From contig NZ_AP023243.1 in assembly GCF_016756495.1 (NCBI RefSeq), positions 6,886,501 through 6,950,500 on the forward strand: 64,000 bases of DNA, in the 5' to 3' direction. The DNA comes from Mesorhizobium sp. 113-3-3. Lineage in GTDB: Bacteria; Pseudomonadota; Alphaproteobacteria; Rhizobiales; Rhizobiaceae. The position numbers and the translations under genes are program-made. Every line of letters starts with the position of its first letter. Positions within the stretch are counted from its first letter, which is position 1. Positions 10,867-31,368 of the stretch are shown here, piece after piece. A model generated the notes under the pieces. It searched no databases. It worked only from the letters and a program-made list of their open reading frames with translations, and was not told the origin of the DNA.

Positions 10867-11537
10867 ATGCTTGGATCAGTTGGGGCGACGATCAGCGCCG
10901 ACAATGTCTTGCCTTGCGACGCCCTTCAGAAAGTTGTTTCTGGAATTGCGTTCGATCAAGGCCCAGCGCAAAACCTTGATGCAGTCGTCGCCGCCGCAAT
11001 CTTCGCCTTCGGCTTTGTCTACATCCATCCGTTCGAGGACGGAAACGGCCGCATTCACCGCTACCTGATCCACCACGTCCTTGCCATGCACAGCTTCAAT
11101 CGCCGGGAGTGGTGTTTCCCGTCTCGGCCGCGATCCTGGACCAGATCGACGAGTACAGGCGCGTGCTGGAGAGCAATTCGAAGCGCCTTCTGCCATTGGT
11201 CGAATGGGAACCGACGCCGCAATTCAACGTCCGGGTGCTGAATGACACCGGGGATTTCTACCGATACTTCGATGCAACCCCGCACGCCGAATTTCTTTAT
11301 GCCTGCCTTCGGCGGACGATCGAACGGTACCTTCCTTACGAAACAGCTTTTCTGCAGCGCTACGATCAATTCCGGCAACAGGTGAATGCCTTTATCGACA
11401 CGCCCAAGCGGCTGATCGATCTGCTCTTCCGTTTCCTTAACCAGAATGGTGGCCCCTATCGAGCCGCGCCCTCGGAAAGGAATTCCCGGCTCTGACCAAT
11501 GACGAAGCGCGGGCGGCTCGAGGCGATCTATGCGCAG
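10867..11537 (+). pseudogene. Fic-domain protein, frameshifted
   Basis: Fic enzymes usually transfer AMP to protein side chains. The catalytic loop HPFEDGNGRIHR is intact near 11028-11063. The reading frame then shifts near 11107. It resumes as VFPVSAAILDQIDEYRRVL with a long C-terminal helical region, and shifts again near 11460 into KEFPALTNDEARAARL. The N-terminus has no start codon or ribosome site. At least two frameshifts make it non-functional. A second, more decayed copy lies at 2852-2988. No adjacent antitoxin is seen. Confidence 0.85.
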
Positions 11538-11866
11538 ACCAGAAAACGGCAAAGCACGCGGCAGAAGCCTTTCCCTGGGACTGCCGGTCGACCCTTGCGT
11601 TAGCGCCGAAACTCGGGACGTCAAGTTCTGGGGCAAACCGGACAAGCCGAAGGTGTGTCGGGAATGCTGCTGCGCCACGGCAGTGATTTCTGCATCATCT
11701 ATACGCCTATATACGCAGTGCCGGCGTCAGCACCCCAGCGGTCGAAGATACGCGACAAGTCGCGTGCAAGTCATCTTGGGGACGCTGACAACAAGGTACG
11801 TGCGCTCAATCGCGTCCACCCCATTCACAAAACCGGCTCCGTGGAGTAGTGGGAACGCAGAGAAAT

Positions 11867-11900
11867 CTCCGGTCGCAGCCTTACCCGGTCAAAACAAGGA
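11867..11900 (+). promoter_or_regulatory. preQ1-I riboswitch (translational) ahead of queC
   Basis: The 34-nt segment has stem CCGG/CCGG (11869-11872 with 11885-11888), loop start GGTCGCAG, then ACCCGG and the A-rich tail CAAAACAAGGA. The loop and tail are nearly identical to the well-known Thermoanaerobacter preQ1-I aptamer, as I remember it. The tail contains the queC ribosome site AAGGA, nine bases before the ATG. Folding of the tail into the pseudoknot would hide that site. PreQ1, a product made downstream of queC, would then shut off translation. Confidence 0.8.
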
Positions 11901-11908
11901 TTCAAACC

Positions 11909-12607
11909 ATGAAAGCCCTCGTCATCTGCTCCGGCGGATTGGACTCTGTTTCGCTCGCTCACAAGGTGGCGACCGAGCAGAAACTCATTGGCCTGCTTTC
12001 GTTCGATTACGGCCAGAGGCACAAAAAGGAACTCGGCTTTGCCGCTATCTGCGCCAAGCGGCTGGCTGTTCCGCACCAGATCGTCGATATCCGCGATGTT
12101 GGCCGGAACCTGAGCGGCTCGGCGCTGACTGATAATGTGGACGTGCCCGACGGGCACTATGCCGAAGACTCCATGAGGATCACGGTGGTGCCGAATAGGA
12201 ACGCCATCATGCTGGCCATCGCCTTCGGGGTTGCCGCCGCGAAGAAGGCCGATGCGGTGGCCACTGCCGTCCACGGCGGAGATCATTTCATCTATCCCGA
12301 TTGCCGGCCCGCTTTTATCGACGCCTTTCAGACGATGCAGAACCATGCCCTCGCAGGCTACGCCGATATCCGCCTGTACGCTCCGTATGTGAATATGTCG
12401 AAGGCCGACATCGTCAGCGAGGGGGCAAAGTACGCCACACCGTTCGAGGCGACGTGGTCCTGCTACAAGGGCGGTGCACGTCATTGCGGTCGCTGCGGGA
12501 CATGCGTCGAACGGCGCGAAGCATTCGATCTGGCCGGCATCACCGACCCGACAGATTATGAGGACGCAGACTTCTGGCTCCACGCTATCCAGACAAGGAG
12601 CGCGTGA
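11909..12607 (+). CDS. queC: 7-cyano-7-deazaguanine synthase QueC
   Basis: ATP-dependent conversion of 7-carboxy-7-deazaguanine to preQ0, on the queuosine pathway. The PP-loop SGGLDSVSLA is at the N-terminus. The zinc-binding cysteines CYKGGARHCGRCGTC are near the C-terminus. The segment VPNRNAIMLAIAFGVAAA matches the family. The start ATG 11909 has AAGGA from the riboswitch tail as its ribosome site. It is the first gene of a coupled queC-queD-queE set. Confidence 0.95.
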   Translation: MKALVICSGGLDSVSLAHKVATEQKLIGLLSFDYGQRHKKELGFAAICAKRLAVPHQIVDIRDVGRNLSGSALTDNVDVPDGHYAEDSMRITVVPNRNAIMLAIAFGVAAAKKADAVATAVHGGDHFIYPDCRPAFIDAFQTMQNHALAGYADIRLYAPYVNMSKADIVSEGAKYATPFEATWSCYKGGARHCGRCGTCVERREAFDLAGITDPTDYEDADFWLHAIQTRSA

Positions 12608-12963
12608 TGTTCCGCATTACCAAAGAGTTCCACTTCTCGGCCTCGCATCAGCTCACCTCCTTGCCACCAGATCATCAGTGCGCACGTCTGCACGGCCACA
12701 ACTACATCGTCGTAGTGGAGCTTTCAGGTGGCGAACTGGACGAACACGGCTTTGTGCGCGACTACCAAGATCTGGCGGCGTTCAAGCACTACATCGATGG
12801 GACGTTCGACCATCGGCATCTTAACGACGTGCTGGGGCATGACCATGCCACAGCGGAATGTCTGGCCAGGCACTTCTACGACTGGTGCAAGGTGCGGCTA
12901 CCCGAAACCTCCGCCGTGCGGGTGAGCGAGACGCCGAAAACCTGGGCGGAATACCGACCATGA
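12607..12963 (+). CDS. queD: 6-carboxytetrahydropterin synthase QueD
   Basis: Turns dihydroneopterin triphosphate into 6-carboxy-5,6,7,8-tetrahydropterin, the first committed step to preQ0. The zinc histidines are in FSASHQL and LHGHNY. The catalytic Cys sits in [10 protein letters not shown]. The ATG at 12607 overlaps the queC stop codon by one base. The 118-residue length is normal for the short family form. A decayed partial copy is at 847-990. Confidence 0.95.
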
Positions 12964-13697
12964 CTTGCGCGTTGCATCCCGGAATCCGGGTGAGCGAGAT
13001 TTTTGGGCCGACCATTCAGGGCGAAGGCGTGCTGATCGGCTTGCCGACGGTGTTCGTAAGAACCGGCGGGTGCGATTATCGCTGTTCCTGGTGCGACAGC
13101 CTGCATGCGGTGGACCGTCGCTTCCGCCATGATTGGGAGATGATGTCTTCCGACGCGGTTTGGCAAAAGGTCATTGCACTTTCCGGCGGTCAGCCCGTGA
13201 TGGTATCGCTGTCGGGCGGCAATCCGGCCATCCAGCCGCTTGGCCAGTTGATCGACCGCGGGCATGGTGAGGGCTACCGTTTTGCATTGGAAACCCAAGG
13301 TTCGGTGTCTAAGCAATGGTTCGCGGATCTCGACGTGCTGGTACTCAGCCCCAAGCCGCCCTCAAGTGAAATGACGACAGATTGGGCCGCGTTCGACGCC
13401 TGCTTAGAGGCGGCGCAGGATAAGCCGCAGACGGCGCTCAAGCTCGTCGTCTTCGACGAAGATGACTATGCCTATGCCAAAGACGCCGCGGCGCGCTACC
13501 CGCAATTACCCGTCTATCTGCAGCCCGGCAATCACACGCCGCCGCGTCCCGGCAACGAAGACGGGTTCATCGACATGGCCGGTGTGATGAGGCGCATGGA
13601 ATGGCTGGTTGAAAAAGTGACCCGTGACAGGTGGTTCGAGGCGCGTGTACTGCCGCAGCTTCATGTTCTGCTCTGGGGAAACAAACGGGGCGTCTAG
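12960..13697 (+). CDS. queE: 7-carboxy-7-deazaguanine synthase QueE (radical SAM)
   Basis: A radical S-adenosylmethionine enzyme that contracts the pterin ring to 7-carboxy-7-deazaguanine. The 4Fe-4S motif CDYRCSWC (CxxxCxxC) is within the first 50 residues, after [11 protein letters not shown], a family hallmark. The start ATG 12960 overlaps the queD stop codon (ATGA). A longer upstream frame runs inside queD and is not a likely start. Length is about 245 residues, as expected. Confidence 0.95.
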
Positions 13698-13711
13698 CCG
13701 AAGGGGAAGGA

Positions 13712-13828
13712 TTGCCGACGACGAGCAAGACAGACCTCTATAGCAATCTCACCCAACTGGGCGGCAGCAGCGTCGTTCCGGAAAGCCCCGAAAACACCGT
13801 GCTGGAAAAGGCACCGAAATCCGCATGA
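13712..13828 (+). pseudogene. Truncated queF (N-terminal stub)
   Basis: QueF reduces preQ0 to preQ1. Only 38 codons remain, reading SKTDLYSNLTQLGGSSVVPE and then SPENTVLEKAPKSA before a TGA. This matches the conserved N-terminus of QueF, whose catalytic part lies much further on. The start is TTG 13712 with a strong AAGGGGAAGGA site, 14 bp after queE, so it was the fourth gene of the operon. The rest has been lost. A complete queF must exist elsewhere if this locus serves queuosine. Confidence 0.75.
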
Positions 13829-13983
13829 GGGCTCGCCTTATTGGGGGCGCTTCACCGCTCCTCTGGAGCGTGACTTGCTCTCGATACTACCATGCTTTTC
13901 CGCTGGGTTTGTTTGGTTGCCGATCACCGCTGCGGGACGAATGCGCTTGACAAAATAGCGACGGGCCGTTCAATTCGATGCAT

Positions 13984-17032
<3,049 letters not shown>

Positions 17033-31291: not shown

Positions 31292-31368
31292 TATGGCTTA
31301 GCTCAGTCTGGTAGAGCAGTAGTTTTGTAAACTATTGATCGGGGCTTCGAGTCCCTCAGGCGGCACCA
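31292..31368 (+). tRNA. Degenerate tRNA-Thr(TGT)-like gene
   Basis: D-arm TAGCTCAGTCTGGTAGAGCA, anticodon arm with loop TTTGTAA (anticodon TGT), and 3' part TTCGAGTCCCTCAGGCGGCACCA are all recognisable. The 3' part fits a normal tRNA-Thr. The 5' acceptor strand (TATGGCT) does not pair with AGGCGGC, and the T stem has a C-C mismatch. Probably a decayed, island-borne copy. Confidence 0.5.

Follow-up and report, generated by a model that had tools for sequence, protein, structure and literature searches.

The published accounts of the class I preQ1 riboswitches, in their available parts, describe a G-C floor pair, a specificity C, and a loop U that reads the edge of the ligand, together with an A-rich L3 and, in the aptamer of Thermoanaerobacter tengcongensis (Tte), a C7-G11-C30 ceiling (PMC11625349). 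The Tte aptamer, one of the closest known systems, reads CUGGGUCGCAGUAACCCCAGUUAACAAAACAAGGG in the accessible portions of PMC10639078 and PMC8494917. Among the matches listed in a search of the open literature on preQ1 riboswitches in rhizobia and other Alphaproteobacteria, the element reported here was not described in the titles and abstract beginnings. The subtypes of the class are said to originate with McCown et al. in 2014, who may already list such sequences.

Here, we describe a riboswitch-like conserved element of the preQ1-I kind that lies directly 5′ of queC in a 64,000-nucleotide stretch of Mesorhizobium sp. 113-3-3 DNA (the window, C1:6886501-6950500 of the 7.7-Mb genome) and that is not a rarity of this genome. 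We give a probability of roughly 84% to the reading that it is a class I preQ1 riboswitch in an alphaproteobacterial variant whose core resembles type II, and that it would turn off the translation of queC-queD-queE. The observations behind this reading are a covarying P1, a conserved UCGCAG..AC loop, an A-rich tail whose end is the Shine-Dalgarno sequence of queC, the strong conservation of the whole, and a location before queuosine genes. Counting against it are the RF00522 scores below the cut-off everywhere tested, together with the commonness of weak RF00522 matches in control genomes; the three of five P1 pairs that never vary and the short P1 of the window; the lack of an energy signal; the scarcity of covariation in P2; and the 6 of 16 class-sample genomes with a queC of the window type in which no element was found.

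The queC leader compared with known aptamers

The candidate element comprises 32 letters, from 11869 to 11900, arranged as CCGG-UCGCAGCCUUAC-CCGG-UC-AAAACAAGGA, and falls within the span 11867-11909 proposed for it in the preliminary description (Table 1). The 3′ end of the queC leader is ...AAAUCUCCGGUCGCAGCCUUACCCGGUCAAAACAAGGAUUCAAACC-AUG. P1 has 4 bp in the window, with U-U at the next outward position, and the Shine-Dalgarno end of AAAACAAGGA stands 8 nt 5′ of the queC start (ATG 11909-11911), in agreement with the earlier placement of the queC ribosome site in the tail.

Table 1. Features of the candidate element and the que locus, in window positions
Feature	Position	Strand	Basis
Candidate promoter TTCACA-N17-TAGTGG	11824..11852	+	By eye, tentative
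P1 5′ strand CCGG	11869..11872	+	Letters; P1 covariation in relatives
Loop UCGCAGCCUUAC	11873-11884	+	Letters
UCGCAG, same as in the Tte aptamer; candidate Tte-kind P2 5′ strand	11873..11878	+	Letter comparison
CCUU, putative alternative anti-Shine-Dalgarno strand, could pair with AAGG 11896-11899	11879..11882	+	Letters
AC preceding the P1 3′ strand	11883..11884	+	Letters
P1 3′ strand CCGG	11885..11888	+	Letters; covariation
A-rich tail and Shine-Dalgarno sequence AAAACAAGGA	11891..11900	+	Letters
queC	11909..12607	+	TIGR00364, 180.1 bits (cut-off 150.3)
queD	12607..12963	+	TIGR03367, 93.2 bits (cut-off 89.25)
queE	12960..13697	+	TIGR03365, 391.7 bits (cut-off 206.1)
queF remnant, 38 codons and stop, TTG start assumed	13712..13828	+	DNA likeness to intact queF over 13705-13861

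In common with Tte, a class I type II aptamer, the window has GG before the loop, UCGCAG, AC before the P1 3′ strand, and AAAACAAGG, which forms the tail with the Shine-Dalgarno sequence in both. The two differ in the length of P1 (4 bp in the window versus 5 in Tte), in the letters between UCGCAG and AC (CCUU versus UA), and in the linker from P1 to the A-run (UC versus UUAAC). A gapped pattern of the Tte-common letters, picked after the match was known, occurred once in the window and in none of 100 shuffles. Judged by sequence, the window and the leaders of all 80 relatives discussed below have the specificity C, the G-C floor pair, the loop U, and the A-rich L3, and C 11884 is predicted to be the ligand specificity base, given the role of this position in the available part of PMC11625349. 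Two further marks of class I, a P1 hairpin followed by an A-rich tail and a location before genes of queuosine synthesis or uptake, are also found, the former in the letters and the P1 covariation. By the subgroup definitions in that part of PMC11625349, the AC before the P1 3′ strand agrees with type II and not with type I, which has UC there, and the loop, starting with UCGCAG, does not agree with type III, in which UU follows the P1 5′ strand and the loop is rich in pyrimidines.

The Rfam family RF00522 recognizes this architecture in the best relatives, yet it would not report the element at its curated cut-off of 39 bits, and annotation at that cut-off overlooks it. No match was found at the cut-off in the whole window, nor at an E value of ≤10 in a 301-base stretch or in the organism's own genome. 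On a 53-base stretch alone, RF00522 was the sole family listed (10.2 bits, E 3.8), and the alignment ran across the entire model in register, with one model base skipped in the loop, another skipped in the tail, and one U inserted. The covariance-model check suggested in the preliminary description returned a match only far below the cut-off; the likeness of loop and tail to the Thermoanaerobacter aptamer noted there was borne out by the common letters and this weak alignment. When 20 relatives (58 kb) were searched at an E value of ≤10, four matches of 22.2 to 25.6 bits were obtained (L115, L138, L161, and L102), all on the element and in register, with none elsewhere in those sequences; the best of them is also short of 39 bits. 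The other 16 of the 20, and ten other relatives, gave none at this E value. Five whole genomes yielded one weak match on the element (G331, 18.9 bits), and the matches listed in G237, G319, and G301 lay off the element, at 19.6 bits at most. All 14 control genomes had some RF00522 match at an E value of ≤10, only one above the cut-off.

The score of 10.2 bits is the lowest RF00522 score listed for the element, which would suit a leader that has lost the switch in this genome, with P1 cut to 4 bp, the loop one U longer, and queF gone; the adjoining truncated queF and the existence of a second queC would fit as well. We regard such a loss as quite improbable, because 52 loci, the window among them, retain this core form, the queC, queD, and queE products score above their family cut-offs, and the P1 energy of −3.3 kcal/mol is near those of L071 (−3.4) and L115 (−3.6), though weaker than that of the 5-bp forms (−5.1; Tte, −5.3). 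Energy folding of the 52-nt leader did not contain P1, and its stability was no better than that of shuffles (z 0.53).

A consensus scan for promoters found none; by eye, many leaders of the Rhizobiaceae type have TTCACA at the corresponding place. No terminator-like site was found between the element and queC, which favors translational control. Next to the operon, a TPP riboswitch (RF00059, 74.5 bits; 13979-14095) precedes thiC directly 3′ of the que genes, and overlapping frames on the 5′ side (10867-11495) resemble a broken Fic gene, one of them weakly of the Fic family (E 7.8e-5). A tRNA-family match (RF00005, 42.2 bits) lies at 31297-31359.

Conservation, covariation, and spread

When genome contigs were searched with the queC protein, 157 loci were confirmed and the best 80 kept; in all 80, the element was directly 5′ of queC. 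It occurs in 27 forms, with flanks counted and the window included. Among 22 representatives hand-picked from 81 loci, all matched by the anchor pattern used, the mean pairwise identity was 0.991 for P1 with UCGCAG, 0.985 for AC with the P1 3′ strand, and 0.977 for the tail, compared with 0.515 for the third codon positions of queC and 0.324 for the 35 nt upstream.

The 24 core forms show C-G at P1 pair 2 in 22 cases, G-C in 1, and U-A in 1, and at the fifth position outward 12 forms have a standard pair, of four kinds in all, and the other 12 are unpaired; three of the five P1 pairs never vary and are therefore uninformative on covariation. In a covariation test run on 21 of these forms, the structure of P1 plus CCU-AGG had 9 double-changed cells versus 3.8 ± 1.5 in shuffles, none of 500 shuffles reaching 9. 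Eight of the nine cells are in P1, spread over two pairs. Slid by one column, the structure paired in 65% and 60% of cells, compared with 89% in register. The model used to find the later forms contains P1, which favors paired forms; L071, with a P1 of CGGG/CCCG, came from the protein search.

The P1 repeat could instead be a DNA operator, a CCGG..CCGG inverted repeat bound by a repressor protein, as P1 is an inverted repeat in DNA too and sequence alone does not distinguish single-strand features from DNA. This explanation has very little probability in our estimation. The loop and the Shine-Dalgarno tail, equal to those of a solved RNA aptamer, are among the most conserved letters, the element lies between a probable promoter and the start codon, and the linker from P1 to the tail varies from 0 to about 35 nt among relatives. 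In two loci (L133 and L134), inserts of 29 and about 35 nt stand between P1 and the A-rich tail.

Just as improbable is a conserved ribosome site or a stabilizer of the mRNA 5′ end that senses nothing. The tail is indeed the ribosome site, and a second hairpin precedes P1 in other families, but this explanation leaves the near-invariant UCGCAG..AC loops and the P1 covariation unaccounted for. A hairpin of at least 6 pairs just 5′ of P1 was found in 19 of 34 other-family loci versus 3 of 29 Rhizobiaceae-type loci, the two sets being hand-made and drawn up after some upstream hairpins were known; no hairpin was found directly 5′ of P1 in the window. The upstream hairpin is varied in sequence (e.g., in L085, L089, L102, L103, L115, L120, and L134).

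With the model R1, matches were obtained in 42 of the 397 order-sample genomes (18 of 141 genera), in 7 of the 385 class-sample genomes, and in 12 of the 398 phylum-sample genomes, these 12 all belonging to the same class. Weak matches can be lost to the filters of these searches, as in G237, which was missed and whose element (L150) was found by protein. The earlier remark that few such elements are known in Rhizobiales is not supported, given their presence in all 80 relatives kept (of 157 confirmed) and in these 42 order-sample genomes. One of the 42 matches (L132) was rejected as likely false, and L129 was rejected as a decayed copy. Two further weak matches in the organism's own genome (L091 and L092; E 1.36 and 2.94) were taken as chance, and an exact pattern scan of viral contigs found no element. 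A queC of the window type (E ≤ 1e-45) occurs in 16 of the 385 class-sample genomes, and 8 of these, the organism's own included, have the element. It was not found in six, as called from the leaders of L144, L151, and L157 and from the absence of an R1 match and the upstream frames in L153 to L155. The remaining two are doubtful (L152) or cut by a contig end (L156). By eye, the queC leader of L152 (G267), CCTG-TCGTAGCAC-CAGG-TTAAAAACACGA, could be a far-diverged preQ1-I element.

In 51 of 53 loci, the first motif-recognized gene behind the element is a queuosine gene, namely queC (45), queD followed by queE (4), or queF (2); two loci gave no motif. In four genomes of family f185 (L106, L108, L109, and L116), queC is missing there and queD-queE lie about 190 to 245 nt behind the element. 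The two loci with queF (L135 and L093) have it directly behind the element in G1049 and as a frame about 89 nt further on in G509. Carriers include Rhizobium tropici CIAT 899 and Sinorhizobium meliloti 1021, whose pSymB has the same leader as the window. In Paracoccus ferrooxidans the element precedes queC-queD-like-queE-queF (as annotated), and in Microvirga VF16 it precedes queC and then a VUT-family gene. Over the window region 11400-12700, the identity to a plasmid of Mesorhizobium sp. 131-3-5, MesoLj131c2, is 99.5%.

Putative ligand and possible feedback across loci

By analogy with solved relatives, preQ1 would sit on the G-C floor of P1 and pair with C 11884, and once bound it would draw AAAACAAGG into a pseudoknot. 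The closed pseudoknot would hide AAGGA from the ribosome and lower the translation of queC, and also that of queD and queE if they are coupled to queC. When preQ1 is scarce, the tail would be free and queCDE would be translated.

The truncation of the local queF, claimed in the preliminary description, was confirmed. Over 157 nt, its DNA aligns at 72.6% identity with the beginning of queF in Aquamicrobium LC103 (L080), where an intact queF stands behind queE; 13 of 23 residues match the organism's own chromosomal QueF, and no NCBIfam family was found on the 38 remnant residues. A motif check found queF with the catalytic motif in at least 2 of 81 loci (L074 and L080), a lower bound because 5 loci are short and, in some of the others, queD or queE escaped the motifs. 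The single QueF-family match in the organism's own genome is a full queF at C1:4743884, 2.1 Mb from the window, as expected from the earlier suggestion of a queF elsewhere; a motif search of that strand of its 3.2-kb locus found no element before it. The genome also has one tgt and one YhhQ-family gene.

Because the local queF is a remnant, either the chromosomal QueF or uptake would supply the preQ1 that is sensed. With queF truncated here and the sole full queF found 2.1 Mb away, it is plausible that the switch reads preQ1 made elsewhere in the cell, in a feedback across loci. Such feedback would not be special to this genome, as S. meliloti likewise has queCDE apart from the chromosomal queF according to the available part of PMC3568095. 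A second queC at C1:6767651, 32% identical and scoring 184.2 bits with TIGR00364 (cut-off 150.3), was found without the element. The supply of preQ0 thus may not depend on the switch alone, and this element-free queC may make the switch leaky or bypass it. In the region of the second queC (L139 6641-8368, about C1:6766640-6768367), a QueE-like frame adjoins and a NifU-like frame is near, both by eye.

It is conceivable, if unlikely, that the same fold has preQ0, the product of QueC, as its main ligand, or preQ0 together with preQ1. The operon makes preQ0, here without a working queF, and the preference of Tte for preQ1 over preQ0 is reported as only 17-fold in the accessible text of PMC10622847; with preQ0 as the ligand, the switch would respond to what its own operon finally makes, without need of a loop across loci. 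However, published class I members prefer preQ1, as far as the available parts of PMC11625349 and PMC10622847 go, and sensing of preQ1 fits better where the element precedes queF (L093 and L135).

The element suggests that preQ1 feeds back on queCDE in Alphaproteobacteria, rhizobia among them. In rhizobia it stands before queCDE on chromosomes and plasmids, and queC is needed for symbiosis in S. meliloti, in which mutants of queC, queF, and tgt show defects in nitrogen-fixing symbiosis (PMC3568095, available part). The natural split between queF and queCDE makes feedback across loci easily testable. Overall, the observation of an element before queC is confirmed, and the interpretation that first accompanied it is partly supported.

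Candidate pairing of the tail and probable place among the preQ1-I types

Two loop strands could pair with the tail to form P2, the Tte-like CGCAG or CCU(U), and each register is paired in 85.7% of cells in the alignment of relatives, where the same share allows pairs of the G11-C30 and C9-G33 types; hardly any covariation was seen in either. In favor of the Tte-like register, UCGCAG is nearly invariant and equal to that of Tte. In favor of the CCU register, CCU keeps its place beside AC despite extra bases between it and the UCGCAG-like stretch (AAUU in L150 and A in L090), and three of the four CCC forms have AAGGG. Against the CCU register, L126 has CUC, L135 has CCC with AGGA, and four forms combine CCU with AAGGG. 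The insertions in L090 and L150 offer a natural series on the choice of an anti-Shine-Dalgarno strand by a 30-nt aptamer.

We tentatively raise the possibility, to which we give well under even odds, of a fourth preQ1-I subtype, so far only in Alphaproteobacteria, in which a type II pocket (UCGCAG..AC and AAAAC) would be combined with a type III-like anti-Shine-Dalgarno strand (CCU or CCUU) pairing with AGG, the RNA either swapping two P2 registers or burying the whole ribosome site. Compared with the type III riboswitch before yhhQ of Escherichia coli, as described in the available parts of PMC11625349 and PMC10622847, the window likewise has AC before the P1 3′ strand, AAGG in the tail, and a pyrimidine run able to pair with the tail AAGG. 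However, it lacks the UU after the P1 5′ strand, and its loop is not all pyrimidine (same sources and parts). Also unlike the E. coli type III riboswitch, elements of the window type stand before que biosynthesis genes, in Alphaproteobacteria.
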